A program made the position numbers and the translations under genes. The notes under the pieces are model-generated. The model worked only from the letters and a program-made list of their open reading frames with translations, made no database searches and had not been told where the DNA came from. Shown one piece after another: positions 28,831-38,875 of a stretch of DNA of 64,000 bases. How positions within the stretch are numbered: position 1 is the first letter of the stretch; each line of letters opens with the position of its first letter. The stretch is from Halalkalibacter oceani (GTDB lineage Bacteria; Bacillota; Bacilli; Bacillales; Bacillaceae_D). The stretch spans positions 248,001 to 312,000 of the forward strand of contig NZ_JAMBOL010000003.1 of NCBI RefSeq assembly GCF_023715605.1, read 5' to 3'.

Positions 28831-28970
28831 GAGATAACGAAATAAACGTACAATTGTCATAAATTGCCGTCATGTCATGTGCAGCAGCTAAAAAAAGACA
28901 CACTTCTCCCGTGATCATAAGCTCTTATTTTAAAAAAGCTTACACGGCCTGCCTGTGGCAGCACACGTTC

Positions 28971-29119
28971 GTTCCTTCTCCCATCCAGACTTTCACTGTC
29001 GGTCCCGGAGTTTCACCAGGTCCACCGCATCCGAAATTCTCACAGATACGGGTCACGGACTAAGAGGCAGCTTCTGCGCCTCATCACCGCCGGTCGGGAT
29101 TTTCACCCGGCCCCGAAGG
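28971..29119 (-). promoter_or_regulatory. FMN riboswitch (RFN element)
   Basis: Read on the minus strand, the conserved RFN blocks appear in order: CTTCGGGGC, GGGTGAAAATCCC, ACCGGCGGT, AGTCCGTGACCCG, GGTGGACCTGGTGAAACTCC, GGGACCGACAGTGAAAGTC and GGATGGGAGAAGGA. Binding of FMN is expected to allow the terminator at 28792-28830 to form and switch off ribD-ribE-ribAB-ribH. This fills most of the long gap upstream of ribD. Confidence 0.96.
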
Positions 29120-29260
29120 ATAAAATATAAGATTGTTTGGTTTCGTAAATTTTCTTAATTCACCTAAAACAAACCCTTTAAAATCAACTTTCCCATGCTG
29201 ATAAAAACCTACCGAAAACCTATTAAAAAACCTTCCGGCATGTAGCCGTTGATTGAAGTT

Positions 29261-30750: not shown

Positions 30751-30903
30751 TTAATCCTGCTGCTCTTTATCTTTCTCCTTCTCCAGCTCGGCCAGCTTGG
30801 CCAGTAAAATGTGCTGGGGCATGTGCATAATCTGCTCAAGTGGAACATGTAAAGATTTTGCCAGCTTTTGCGCCGTTTCTGCTGAAATTTGCAATGGTCT
30901 CAT
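30751..30903 (-). CDS. yycC: YycC-like small protein
   Basis: 50 aa beginning MRPLQISAETAQKLAKSLHV, with HMPQHILLAKLAEL in the middle and a charged tail. This matches the YycC family of Bacilli, whose function is unknown. AAGGAGGG precedes the ATG by 9 bases. Its ATG overlaps the TGA of the upstream SUKH gene (ATGA), so the two are translated together. Confidence 0.75.
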   Translation of the reverse strand: MRPLQISAETAQKLAKSLHVPLEQIMHMPQHILLAKLAELEKEKDKEQQD

Positions 30904-31406
30904 TCGGCTGTCCCTCCTTTCTTTTCCTCTTTTAATGGCGAGCGCCGAAACAGCTTGGCGGTGAACTCCTCAAAATTCGGGGCAAGCCGGTATTCCTTCC
31001 ATTGAGCTGAGACGAGATCTCCCTCATTTGTAAGATAAATCACTTCCGGCTCTGTTTGTTGCCGGTAATCGAGCGCGAGCCAGGAATCAAAATCTCCCGT
31101 TAGCAGGACGAGTCCTGCCGGCAGCCCGAATTGTTCGAGGAATAGCGGCGACATCCCGACTCCGCTCGCTGTGTCCATTTCGTACAAATATGGAATAATC
31201 GCTGCCTCCCCATCCTCAAACAATACATAGCGATAAGCCAGCTCGCCGCCATTTTGCTCAAGCATATAGCGGAGGTAGGCTTTTGGCAGGGATACTCCAA
31301 GGAGCTGTTCAACCTCGGTGATCCGCTGATCCGTCAATGGAACGCCCGGTTTATATTCAGATGGGACCTTCCAAAACGACCCCCCCTGATAAAAATCTAA
31401 GCTCAT
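30900..31406 (-). CDS. SMI1/KNR4 (SUKH) family protein
   Basis: 168 aa. The SUKH fold is suggested by the N-terminal block LTDQRITEVEQLLGVSLPKAYLRYMLEQNGG and the later FLEQFGLPAGLVLLTGDFDSWLALDYR. SUKH proteins often act as immunity proteins for secreted toxins, but many housekeeping members exist in Bacillus. No toxin gene is next to it; instead it is coupled to yycC. The immunity role is therefore not supported here. Confidence 0.8.
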   Translation of the reverse strand: MSLDFYQGGSFWKVPSEYKPGVPLTDQRITEVEQLLGVSLPKAYLRYMLEQNGGELAYRYVLFEDGEAAIIPYLYEMDTASGVGMSPLFLEQFGLPAGLVLLTGDFDSWLALDYRQQTEPEVIYLTNEGDLVSAQWKEYRLAPNFEEFTAKLFRRSPLKEEKKGGTAE

Positions 31407-31461: not shown

Positions 31462-32193
31462 CTATTCTTTCTCCCGATTTGTCTGCTCTTCTTGCCGGAT
31501 CTCCTCAATGAGATGATTGATGCCAATCACCCGTTCCACATCGAGAATGAAGGCGATCCCTTTGCCGGATTGATTGAGTTCAACCCCCGTTTCAATTGCT
31601 TCAGCAACGTGCTTCGTTAGCTGATGGTGAATTAATGTCAGCACAATTTCCTTTTCTGGCTCAATTTGAATGTTGAACAGCTTTGCCTTCTCGTGAATGC
31701 CGGAGCCCCGTCCGGACAGCACCGTCGCTCCTTCGGCCCCGGCTGCCAGCGAGGCGTCAACCACTTTGCTGGCATCGCCGCGGTTTACAATTGTCACTAT
31801 CAGGTCAAATTTTTTTGCTGGATCTGACATTATTTGCTCCTCCTCGTCTCGTTTCTCAACCTTACTCCCCGGCGCAAGAGTGACAATACCCAATACGTTT
31901 TCCAAATTGATGACCATGCCAATTCCTTTTCCGGACTGATTCAATTGGACTTTCTCCGTCACAGAGTTAGCAATTTTCTTCATCACCTGGCCTGGAGCAA
32001 TCGTTAAGACGACTTCTTTTTCATAACTTAGCGGAATCCCGAGAAAGCTTTTTTTCTCATGAATGCCACTTCCCTTCGCTAATAAAACGGTCGCTCCTCG
32101 TGCGCCCGCCTCTTTAGCAGCACGTACAACGAGCTTCGCCTCACTTTTTTTGACGATTGTTAATAATAATTTATGAGCCTGACTCGGCTTCAT
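31462..32193 (-). CDS. Tandem PII-like (GlnB-fold) regulatory protein
   Basis: 243 aa made of two PII-like domains joined by an acidic linker (EKRDEEEQIMSDP). Each has the same landmarks: a strand with LLLTIVKKS or LIVTIVNRG, a T-loop-like ATVL-x3-GSGIHEK segment, a strand VVLTI or IVLTL, and the end LNQSGKGIxxxx-x-VENVLGI type. ATG 32193 is chosen, 24 bases inside the upstream gene's end, where an AGGCAGGG site precedes it. PII-like proteins bind nucleotides and gate transporters. The two upstream DUF1538 genes are the likely targets. Confidence 0.85.
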   Translation of the reverse strand: MKPSQAHKLLLTIVKKSEAKLVVRAAKEAGARGATVLLAKGSGIHEKKSFLGIPLSYEKEVVLTIAPGQVMKKIANSVTEKVQLNQSGKGIGMVINLENVLGIVTLAPGSKVEKRDEEEQIMSDPAKKFDLIVTIVNRGDASKVVDASLAAGAEGATVLSGRGSGIHEKAKLFNIQIEPEKEIVLTLIHHQLTKHVAEAIETGVELNQSGKGIAFILDVERVIGINHLIEEIRQEEQTNREKE

Positions 32194-32917
32194 CTTTATC
32201 CCTGCCTTTCCGTTCATAAAGTATTCCTAATAACAGCACTGACAAAATAGGCGCTAATGCGACCAGCGCGATCATACCGAAGCCGTCCATTAACGGATCT
32301 CTGCCTTCAATGACGGAAGCGACCCCGACGGCAATCGCCAAAATAAAAGTGACCGTCATCGGACCGGTAGCGACGCCGCCTGAATCAAAGGCGATTGCAA
32401 TAAACGTTTTTGATACGAGCAGCATCAGAATCAGCACAAGCCCATAACCTGGAATGAGGTAATACCATAATGAAAAACCGAGAAGAATGCGCAGCATCGC
32501 TAAAGCAATCGATACACCAACGCCAATTGACAATGTATAAAGCATCACTTTCTCTGAAATGTAACCGCCTGAAACCTGTTCTACCTGCTCGTTCATAATC
32601 CGAACCGCAGGCTCTGCAAAAGTCGCGACAAAACCAAGGACAAAGCCGATGGGAATAAGCACCCAGTTAAAGGGAAGCTCACCAAGCTTCTCTCCCATTA
32701 CCTCTCCCGCCGGAAAAAAGCCGACATGCACACCCTGCAGAAAGAGCGACAATCCGAGAAAGGAAAGCATCATCCCGATTAAAATATGCAAGATCCGCTT
32801 TTTTTCCAGCTTCAGAAAAAATACCTGAAACACAACAAAAAAGATTAACAGCGGCAATAACGCAAATGTCACCTCAAGCAGCACCTCATGAAACCCTTCG
32901 AAAATGGTGACGCTCAT
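32171..32917 (-). CDS. DUF1538 membrane protein, second of a pair
   Basis: 248 aa with about seven hydrophobic helices. Conserved DUF1538 segments are GVHVGFFPAGEVMG, GFVLGFVATFAEPAVRIMNEQ and FDSGGVATGPMTVTFILAIA. It is homologous to the gene upstream, which it overlaps by four bases, and overlaps the PII gene at its end. The C-terminal tail (GRDKDEAESGS) is charged and cytosolic. The transported substrate is unknown. Confidence 0.85.
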   Translation of the reverse strand: MSVTIFEGFHEVLLEVTFALLPLLIFFVVFQVFFLKLEKKRILHILIGMMLSFLGLSLFLQGVHVGFFPAGEVMGEKLGELPFNWVLIPIGFVLGFVATFAEPAVRIMNEQVEQVSGGYISEKVMLYTLSIGVGVSIALAMLRILLGFSLWYYLIPGYGLVLILMLLVSKTFIAIAFDSGGVATGPMTVTFILAIAVGVASVIEGRDPLMDGFGMIALVALAPILSVLLLGILYERKGRDKDEAESGS

Positions 32918-33606
32918 CCATAAATCACCCCTAACACAAGAACAGCCAATATCGGTCCAATCGAGGCCAGCGCCACGAGTCCAAAGCTATCGCTCGAAGA
33001 ACTTTTCCCACGTAATACCGAGGCAACACCTACCCCGAGTGCTAAAATAAACGGGACGGTCATCGGCCCTGTTGTCACCCCACCTGCATCAAAGGAAATA
33101 GGAACAAAATCGCTCGCAGTAAATGCAGACAGTATAAAAACCGCCGCATATCCGCCAAACAGGAGCCACTTTAGCTCAATCCCGAAAATGATCCGCAGCA
33201 TCGCCAGAGCGACAAAAATCGCCACGCCGAGCGCAACAGCATAGATTAGGACCATTTGCGAAATATTACCGCTGGACACATCCTCAATCTGACTGGAGAG
33301 CACCCGGACATCCGGCTCGGCTACCGTAACAACGAAGCCGAGAATAAAACCGACTAGGACAATCAGCCACACTTTATTTGTTTTTGGCAAAGTTGAGCCA
33401 ATCATCTCGCCAATCGGCAGCAGACCGATATGTACGCCGATTAAAAACAAAAACAAACCAGTGCTGACAAGGACAACGCCGACTAGAAACTGAAGAAAGA
33501 CATCCAGCGGCAGACCGATTAACGTAAACTGCAGCAGAATGATCACGGCGGTTATCGGAATTATCGCCAACACCACTTCTTTAAACGTATCCTTTATATC
33601 TTGCAT
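32914..33606 (-). CDS. DUF1538 membrane protein, first of a pair
   Basis: 230 aa, seven or so helices, with GVHIGLLPIGEMIG, GFILGFVVTVAEPDVRVLSSQ and FDAGGVTTGPMTVPFILALG matching the partner gene position by position. ATG 33606 is chosen because GGAGGGGG lies just upstream; an upstream in-frame start would add a basic, unlike-family stretch. Two half-size homologues in one operon suggest a heterodimeric transporter. Confidence 0.85.
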   Translation of the reverse strand: MQDIKDTFKEVVLAIIPITAVIILLQFTLIGLPLDVFLQFLVGVVLVSTGLFLFLIGVHIGLLPIGEMIGSTLPKTNKVWLIVLVGFILGFVVTVAEPDVRVLSSQIEDVSSGNISQMVLIYAVALGVAIFVALAMLRIIFGIELKWLLFGGYAAVFILSAFTASDFVPISFDAGGVTTGPMTVPFILALGVGVASVLRGKSSSSDSFGLVALASIGPILAVLVLGVIYG

Positions 33607-33756
33607 CGTTTTCCCCCTCCCGGCCTTTTTAGCCTTTTCTCTCTTCATTCCCATTGGGCAGCCTGTTTGAAACAAATTCATATTCAAACCATGACAAAAA
33701 GAAGAGGCGCCCGAAAGCCTGAGCTTCTGAAACACCTCTTCTGCCTAGCAGTCTTA

Positions 33757-34941: not shown

Positions 34942-36045
34942 CTATAGCTGCTCAAGGTCGACCTTCATGACATAATCATCAGCATCTTGCGGGTTGCCTC
35001 TTCCATCACGATTATTCGTCATAAAATAGAGCGACTGCCCGTCAACAAAGAGATCACGAATTCTCCCATAGCCTTCAAGCCATGTCGTAAACTCGGCCGT
35101 CTCCAGGTTGAGCGCGTAAATTCCTTCCCCGCGGAGTCCGGCTACATACAGGACATCTCCGGCAATAGCCACTCCCGAAGGAGCCCATGTGTCTTCGCCG
35201 GAATGAATTAGAGGAGCGCTCAAGCCTTCTTCCGTCTCATCACCTCTGACGATCGGCCAGCCGTAATTGGCGCCCGGTTCGATCAGGTTGATTTCATCAT
35301 GCGCGTTTGAGCCGTGCTCGCTGCTGTAAAGCGTCCCGGCTCCATCCCAGGCCAGCCCTTGCGGATTGCGATGACCATAGGAATAGACGTAGGAATCTTC
35401 CCAAGGATTGTCTTCAGGAACCGTTCCATCAAGCTCAAGTCGGAGAATCGTTCCCGCCATCGCCTCGCGTTCCTGCGCCAGCTCCTCTATCCCGGCATCC
35501 CCTGTTGTCGCGTACAGCTTTTCATCCGGTCCAAGCGCCAGCCGACCGCCATTGTGAATAGTTCCGCCTGGAATCCCGGCAAGCAGCTCTTCTTCCTCTA
35601 TCCACTGTCCATCCTCTGACTGGCTGATGACCGCAATTCGATTCAAGATTTCATTATCTTCCTCATACGTATGATAAACAAAAGCACGGCCATCCTCGGC
35701 ATAATCCGGCGACAGCACAAAGCCAAGCAGACCACCTTCTCCTTCTGCCAGCACTTCATGCTCAAGCACGACATCCGCTCTTTCTTCTTGTCCCTCTTCA
35801 ATCGTAACAATGCTTCCATTACGCTCGGTTACAAAGATCGTCTCTCCTGATTTTGCAATCGCCCACGGCACCTCCAGCTGCTCGGCGATCACTTCAACCG
35901 GCTCACCCTCTTCTACCTGCTCAGTCTCCCCGCCATTTGCTTCAGCCGCGTCCTCTTGCATCGGTTCGCTGCCACTTTCCTCAGGTCCGGTGCTTGAACA
36001 CGCCACGCTTACGGCAATCAGCACCATTATTAACAAATATTTCAT
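34942..36045 (-). CDS. PQQ-dependent sugar (glucose/sorbosone) dehydrogenase-like lipoprotein
   Basis: 367 aa. A lipoprotein signal (MKYLLIMVLIAVSVACS) and an acidic Glu/Gln-rich linker precede a six-bladed propeller of the GSDH family. Motifs are AEGEGGLLGFVLSPDY, IHNGGRLALGPDEKLY with the catalytic His, SYGHRNPQGLAWD and INLIEPGANYGWP. It would oxidise an aldose at the outer face of the membrane. No PQQ biosynthesis genes are in the window. ATG 36045 has GGAGG upstream. Confidence 0.85.
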   Translation of the reverse strand: MKYLLIMVLIAVSVACSSTGPEESGSEPMQEDAAEANGGETEQVEEGEPVEVIAEQLEVPWAIAKSGETIFVTERNGSIVTIEEGQEERADVVLEHEVLAEGEGGLLGFVLSPDYAEDGRAFVYHTYEEDNEILNRIAVISQSEDGQWIEEEELLAGIPGGTIHNGGRLALGPDEKLYATTGDAGIEELAQEREAMAGTILRLELDGTVPEDNPWEDSYVYSYGHRNPQGLAWDGAGTLYSSEHGSNAHDEINLIEPGANYGWPIVRGDETEEGLSAPLIHSGEDTWAPSGVAIAGDVLYVAGLRGEGIYALNLETAEFTTWLEGYGRIRDLFVDGQSLYFMTNNRDGRGNPQDADDYVMKVDLEQL

Positions 36046-36175
36046 CCAAAACACCTCCATTAACGCTTATTCACCGCCAACAGGCTTGTTAAACGTCTTT
36101 TACGGGTTTATCGCAACAAGGCACCGGACTGTTCCCTCTCCGTAAGCAACATCGGATTGCCCTCTTAGAAAAAAA

Positions 36176-38655: not shown

Positions 38656-38701
38656 ACGTCTATCACAAACAGATCAATTCTGTCCAAAGAACTCGTTCCA
38701 C

Positions 38702-38787
38702 ACTTCTTCCCTCCGCTAGTACGAACTAGATCAGGTTATAAGGGTTAAGACAGCCGTCTCTCTCAGCTTTTAACAAAAGCACCCCTA
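38702..38787 (-). promoter_or_regulatory. TPP riboswitch (THI element)
   Basis: Minus strand shows the THI-box order: TAGGGGTGCTTTTG, GCTGAGAGAGAC, AACCCTTATAACCTGATCTA, GTTCGTACTAGCGGAGGGAA. It lies upstream of a terminator and ylmB-thiY and should turn them off when thiamin pyrophosphate is plentiful. Confidence 0.96.
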
Positions 38788-38875
38788 GTAGTGATGATCA
38801 ATATAATTATTTTGTCTACAAGTAGTTGTACCACACCGCAATAAAAAAGGCAATCAGAAAATTCCAACAGCTCGG

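Follow-up and report, generated by a model that had tools for sequence, protein, structure and literature searches.

Paired DUF1538 genes with a near-obligatory PII-like partner in Halalkalibacter oceani and other bacteria and archaea suggest a regulated cation/proton antiporter

What does a gene with two PII-like domains do when it is joined to a pair of genes for DUF1538 membrane proteins? The question is raised by three genes on the minus strand of a 64,000-nucleotide stretch of Halalkalibacter oceani DNA (contig NZ_JAMBOL010000003.1, positions 248,001 to 312,000), which we refer to as the window. A first-pass annotation, made from the sequence alone, had described these genes as two homologous DUF1538 half-transporters overlapping by four bases, the second of which overlaps a gene with two PII-like domains. 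The features, with positions in the window, are:

33606 to 32914, minus strand: DUF1538 gene A, 230 aa from an ATG start, Ump-type membrane protein, first half-transporter
32917 to 32171, minus strand: DUF1538 gene B, 248 aa, second half-transporter with a hydrophilic C-terminal tail
32217 to 31462 (251 aa) or 32193 to 31462 (243 aa), minus strand: tandem PII-like gene, from two PF00543 matches and homologous operons
31840 to 32187 (approximate), minus strand: N-type PII domain, from the alignment and domain tree
31490 to 31830 (approximate), minus strand: C-type PII domain, from the signature GRG(S/T)GIHE...IEPEKE and invariant alignment columns
33680 to 33750 (approximate), minus strand: terminator-like hairpin, AGAAGAGGTG...CGCCTCTTCT followed by a T run, read by eye

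Both parts of the earlier description hold. Genes A and B each match Pfam PF07556 (DUF1538) above its curated cut-off of 22.6 bits (E 8.2e-80 and 267.5 bits for A, E 4.9e-79 and 265 bits for B), share 44% identity across 228 aa and overlap by exactly 4 bases, and thus form a pair of homologous genes in overlapping frames of the UmpAB type. A strong Shine-Dalgarno sequence, GGGAGGGG, lies 5’ of the gene A ATG at 33606, and gene A shares 52-78% identity with its counterparts at the head of split homologous operons in Bacillales; the homologues do not back a longer frame starting with GTG at 33735. The PII-like gene overlaps gene B by 47 bases if it starts at 32217 or by 23 bases if it starts at 32193, and PF00543 matches its product over two stretches (E 1.1e-14, 55 bits against a cut-off of 25). 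The terminator-like hairpin, whose loop exceeds the size limit of the hairpin scan and which was found by eye instead, separates the operon from an upstream methyltransferase gene. Directly 3’ of the PII gene, on the same strand and outside the conserved operon, is a SUKH/SMI1-family gene (30900-31406). An Rfam scan of the window returned only two ordinary riboswitches, both away from the operon: an FMN riboswitch (28969-29124) 5’ of riboflavin genes and a TPP riboswitch (38691-38796) 5’ of a probable thiamine-precursor salvage cluster. Across the genome (4.47 Mb, 99.95% complete) there is no further DUF1538 gene beyond A and B and no PF00543 match besides the tandem PII-like gene, so that canonical GlnB/GlnK, judged by these matches, appears to be absent.

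The linkage of the PII-like gene to the DUF1538 pair extends far beyond this organism. Across 644 genomes from three phyla we found DUF1538 in 140, the PII-like family in 140 and both in 139. Among the 299 Bacillota genomes, where the PII-like family was identified with a profile of 22 relatives (E up to 1e-10), the counts are 101, 101 and 100, respectively (Fisher p ~4e-78; this and all other co-occurrence statistics count related genomes and ignore shared ancestry). Two Bacillota genomes depart from the pattern: G205, where DUF1538 matches only weakly, and G198, whose PII is a truncated fragment (locus L177). In the phylum of a Pseudodesulfovibrio genome (G445), the Desulfobacterota, both families occur in the same 7 of 148 genomes, and in that of Methanomethylovorans (G447) both exceed their cut-offs in the same 32 of 197, one extra genome there having a DUF1538 match under the cut-off. 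The genes are also adjacent. We collected 132 loci, of which 125 have enough flanking DNA to be informative, and in 120 of these 125 the PII-like gene lies directly downstream of DUF1538 on the same strand. The same gene order, DUF1538 and then PII-like, is found on plasmids of Alphaproteobacteria; the plasmid searches returned Alphaproteobacteria and Clostridia only, and Pseudomonadota were sampled through plasmids. Five loci in Sutcliffiella and Metabacillus lacus (L005, L092, L093, L094 and L097) keep the DUF1538 pair without an adjacent PII gene, so the PII protein appears to be dispensable in this one clade, to which the clear losses are confined. A single PII gene of the DUF1538-linked family in one genome (G594, L175:4833-5147) has no DUF1538 neighbor; its neighbors include a nitroreductase and a sigma-54 activator. 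The first-pass annotation had proposed that its coupling idea be given up if PII genes and DUF1538 pairs proved usually unlinked; the linkage is instead near-obligatory. The PII-like gene and the DUF1538 pair belong together, beyond what chance would give.

The PII-like protein has the expected fold. Its two domains are 44% identical over 119 aa, and AlphaFold2 models the tandem protein (pLDDT 85.4, pTM 0.80) as two ferredoxin-like domains. A Foldseek search of solved structures with this model finds GlnK1 (E 4.4e-6); the C domain superposes on GlnZ, PII and GlnK1 structures with Z of about 8 and rmsd of 2.1-2.4. When 221 domains of the family were compared residue by residue with E. coli GlnK, the canonical ATP contacts K90 and R101 were present in none, being replaced by I/L/V and G, R103 was rare, Q39 was mostly H, Y51 was mostly I or V, and the T-loop was shorter by about 5 residues. 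T29, G35 and K58 are retained in nearly all C-type and single domains, and the C-type loop round the pocket that normally takes the ligand belongs to the best conserved regions of the protein. The family signature GRGTGIHExxKLxGIxIEPEKE is the same in single-PII relatives, from archaea to Bacillota. The N-type domain evolves faster, and its T-loop is degenerate in many relatives. Members are labeled automatically as ‘P-II family nitrogen regulator’; in NCBIfam, no model fits the family and the P-II models match poorly. By its residues, then, the PII family linked to DUF1538 is distinct from canonical PII. Without the residues by which canonical PII contacts ATP and 2-oxoglutarate, ordinary ATP binding should not be assumed, and the ligand or the mode of binding would differ from that of GlnB/GlnK; canonical ATP/2-oxoglutarate binding by this family is unlikely. 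The earlier annotation thus fares unevenly on this point: the fold whose absence it had named as evidence against its proposal is present, and the canonical nucleotide-binding residues are gone.

At 26-35 bits, the PII-family profile also picks up the closest PII-like proteins from outside the family, and these adjoin Na+/H+ exchangers of PF00999 (CPA2) in 8 of 8 loci. These proteins of ~120 aa (L181-L188, in the Bacillota genomes G150, G369, G352, G214, G192, G272 and G154) form a separate clade in the domain tree with a support of 95, and the one that was compared with GlnK residue by residue (L188) also lacks K90 and R101, with leucine and glycine in their place. A ninth, weaker profile match (L189) is a true GlnK adjoining amt. 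Like the DUF1538-linked proteins, these nearest relatives sit beside a cation/proton antiporter; they differ in having PF00999 rather than DUF1538 as partner and in being single-domain proteins of a separate clade. It is possible, and we put it forward tentatively, that PII-like proteins of a branch lacking the canonical nucleotide residues act quite generally, in bacteria as well as archaea, as regulators of monovalent cation/proton antiporters from two transporter families, DUF1538 and CPA2. In the DUF1538 line they would form an asymmetric N-type/C-type hetero-ring, built from chains of one, two or three domains, and would sense a ligand new to PII.

The number of PII domains varies with the locus. 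Split A and B genes are accompanied by a tandem PII in 49 loci, by two separate PII genes in 17, by one PII domain in 22 (one of them near a contig edge) and by no PII in 5; fused A-B genes of ~500 aa are accompanied by a tandem PII in 29 loci and by two PII genes in 3. In two archaeal genomes (G692 and G702) both forms coexist on different contigs: a split pair beside one PII domain and a fused gene beside a tandem PII. Triple-PII proteins of 369-381 aa occur in two Desulfobacterota genomes (L173:2324-3433 and L174:2388-3533), where their genes adjoin a fused DUF1538 of ~710 aa with a long inserted region. A fused DUF1538 therefore goes with two PII domains in 32 of 32 loci and with three in these two further loci, an association not separable from ancestry because the gene switches between fused and split forms only 3 times on the tree. 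The suggestion that two fused PII domains match the two halves of a heterodimeric channel was considered as a rule and is not borne out, given one, two or three PII domains per chain and the 22/17/49/5 variants of the split pair. A PII trimeric ring is made of three domains, and a two-domain chain hence does not close one ring neatly. In the domain tree, which is based on a short alignment and leaves many forks unresolved, all first-position PII domains (the tandem N domains and the first of the separate genes) form one group of 32 apart from the second-position and single domains (support 94, not starred). This suggests that the N-type/C-type split is an old hetero-pair of PII paralogues, produced by one old duplication that was followed by repeated fusion or splitting.

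What the DUF1538 proteins transport had been treated as unknown, a statement that is out of date. UmpA and UmpB of Halomonas zhaodongensis, also DUF1538 proteins, pair up as a heterodimer that carries out Na+(Li+,K+)/H+ antiport from pH 6.5 to 9.5 and an optimum at pH 9.0; a subclone with umpA and umpB only is active, and UmpAB raises salt and alkali tolerance in E. coli (PMC5484666, the one study of DUF1538 antiport, carried out in E. coli). The A and B proteins score 125-131 bits against the NCBIfam equivalog models for UmpA and UmpB (NF041627 and NF041628), for which the cut-offs are 490 and 500; we therefore do not file them as UmpA and UmpB but place them in the same wider family, and their substrate is assigned at the level of the family. 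A PII gene also accompanies Desulfobacterota loci nearer to UmpAB (316-360 bits), which extends the linkage across the family. A machine-learning study of optimal growth pH has DUF1538 among its 20 most informative Pfams (PMC13255231), and UmpAB homologues track salinity in cable bacteria (PMC10030654). The window also holds, at 34942-36060, a glucose/sorbosone dehydrogenase-like lipoprotein gene of PF07995, a family on the same top-20 pH list (PMC13255231); its nearness to the DUF1538 genes is probably coincidence.

Seven helices each for A and B would agree with the published 7-TM UmpA and UmpB (PMC5484666) and with the helices modeled for a fused homologue (L132:1429-2937). The AlphaFold2 model of this homologue (pLDDT 88.4, pTM 0.87) has two like halves, in each of which helices are interrupted round conserved EP and FD(S/A)GGVxTGP motifs; the underlying alignment consists of fused and A rows only, since split B proteins aligned onto the first half of the fused proteins. 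In the model these motifs are likely to mark the ion site. In the alignment of homologues, two acidic positions, E97 and D173, never vary among the A and B proteins. Searches of solved structures with the model gave nothing convincing (best Foldseek E 0.018, best VIA Z 5.9), and no sequence relative of DUF1538 was found in the PDB; judged by the model, DUF1538 is possibly an unsolved transporter fold. At the C terminus, the fused DUF1538 proteins of gut Clostridia (L125-L140) share a conserved acidic stretch (DxEIIEL or similar) on which the PII protein may dock.

Taken with the published antiport, our observations of gene linkage, co-occurrence, a PII fold, loss of the canonical residues and sister PII-like genes beside Na+/H+ exchangers make it probable that the three genes encode an Ump-type cation/proton antiporter together with a dedicated PII-like allosteric regulator that has a non-canonical ligand. 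By analogy with UmpAB, A and B would themselves carry out antiport, forming a heterodimer that swaps Na+ (Li+, K+) for H+. The PII-like protein would bind physically at the cytosolic face of this antiporter, with the conserved C-type T-loop as the likely docking contact, and a small ligand bound at the domain interfaces would change antiport activity. The N-type domain may act as a helper that sets the geometry, and the PII-like protein would be a dedicated regulator with no general role in nitrogen metabolism. The earlier proposal that a PII-like gene is coupled to a DUF1538 transporter stands for the gene linkage, which is near-obligatory, and is qualified as regards ordinary nucleotide binding, for which the canonical residues are missing.

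This arrangement resembles several known systems. With UmpAB it shares two homologous DUF1538 genes of ~7 TM in overlapping frames, the same Pfam and an expected heterodimer; in contrast, the UmpAB paper reports no PII gene, and the cloned 4.2-kb fragment has no further intact gene after umpB (PMC5484666). As in SbtA-SbtB, where SbtA is the cyanobacterial bicarbonate transporter, a PII-like protein is dedicated to one membrane carrier, but the transporter and the signature are different and the DUF1538-linked PII can be tandem or triple. The window PII lies beside DUF1538 genes rather than sbtA, and its 251 aa contain no cysteine, so it lacks the C-terminal redox R-loop of SbtB. GlnK-AmtB shares the PII fold and a PII gene beside a transporter gene, and its trimer docking serves as model for the proposed mechanism, whereas the window family lacks the canonical ATP/2-oxoglutarate residues and the uridylylation tyrosine, has another transporter as partner and includes tandem domains. 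PII-NG, described beside the CzcABC cation/proton efflux genes (Sant’Anna 2009, as cited in PMC7726332), likewise ties a branch of PII to cation/proton antiport; going by that description rather than by sequence, it differs in its partner, a heavy-metal pump, in its occurrence in Proteobacteria and in its PII branch, and no czc genes lie next to the window PII. PstA of Bacillota is also a modified PII with a short T’-loop and an altered ligand, but its motif TKLXXXGGFLXXGNTT (PMC4316997) is not in the window PII, which has TVLLAKGSGIHEKKSF and TVLSGRGSGIHEKAKL, and no PstA-DUF1538 linkage was seen among the loci examined.

Other readings of the locus can be weighed against this evidence. That the PII-like protein is an ordinary nitrogen regulator that merely neighbors a transporter, as its automatic label and PF00543 match would have it, is scarcely credible: Q39, Y51, K90 and R101 are missing, the NCBIfam P-II models fit poorly, no amt or gln genes adjoin, and it is DUF1538, not nitrogen genes, with which the family is linked. 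A role as structural subunit or assembly factor, with no regulatory ligand bound, would account for the loss of K90 and R101 in all 221 domains, for the decayed T-loops of many N-type domains and for the almost obligatory linkage. This is nevertheless quite improbable, given the high conservation of the C-type loop at the usual ligand pocket, the retention in almost every C-type and single domain of K58, which lies close to where 2-oxoglutarate normally binds, and the five DUF1538 loci without PII; and because UmpAB worked in E. coli from umpA and umpB alone, without a PII protein (PMC5484666), we infer a regulator rather than a required subunit.

The same partnership might instead serve another substrate, such as an anion, a metabolite or another ion, the activity of UmpAB in E. 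coli being a side effect of over-expression. The scores of A and B far under the UmpA/UmpB cut-offs leave room for this, as do the frequency of DUF1538 in gut Clostridia from places neither salty nor alkaline, the known control of ammonium and bicarbonate carriers by PII proteins, and a transport site that is visible in no solved structure by structure and PDB sequence searches. We regard it as unlikely, since DUF1538 is associated with pH (PMC13255231) and UmpAB with salinity (PMC10030654), sister PII-like genes adjoin Na+/H+ exchangers, and E97 and D173 are invariant, as expected of a cation/proton site. A further proposal, compatible with a regulated antiporter, takes c-di-AMP as the ligand of the PII-like protein, on the model of the PII-like receptor PstA (PMC4316997); this would tie the antiporter to the second messenger of K+ and Na+ carriers in Bacillota. 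Diadenylate cyclases occur in 20 of the 21 DUF1538-bearing genomes tested, an overlap that is weak and uninformative because they are also common in controls (11 of 14). The one DUF1538-bearing genome without a cyclase match and the TIxxGRGTGIHE stretch that the family has in place of the PstA motif make this unlikely. Alphaproteobacteria are not usually known to have diadenylate cyclases, and the presence of the operon there counts against c-di-AMP as well. The antiporter with a dedicated regulator of non-canonical ligand remains our preferred reading.

PII-type control of carriers is already known from GlnK-AmtB, SbtB-SbtA and PII-NG beside Czc pumps. What appears new here is a separate PII family, tied in bacteria as well as archaea to a family of cation/proton antiporters and made of chains with one, two or three domains. 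We found no description of the pairing of DUF1538/UmpAB with PII in the literature searched; subscription papers and preprints were outside its scope, and an earlier mention is possible. The family would offer PII proteins with a probably non-canonical ligand, and its natural one-, two- and three-domain versions are a ready series for the study of PII ring assembly on a transporter. A large set of proteins now labeled ‘nitrogen regulator’ would leave nitrogen metabolism. Growth at high pH and salt depends centrally on the balance of Na+ and protons, and little is known of how such antiporters are switched; a PII partner that is near-obligatory in several bacterial phyla and in archaea would make the control of a whole antiporter family testable. 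The pairing suggests that the PII-like protein is a switch on a transporter for salt and pH control rather than a regulator of nitrogen.
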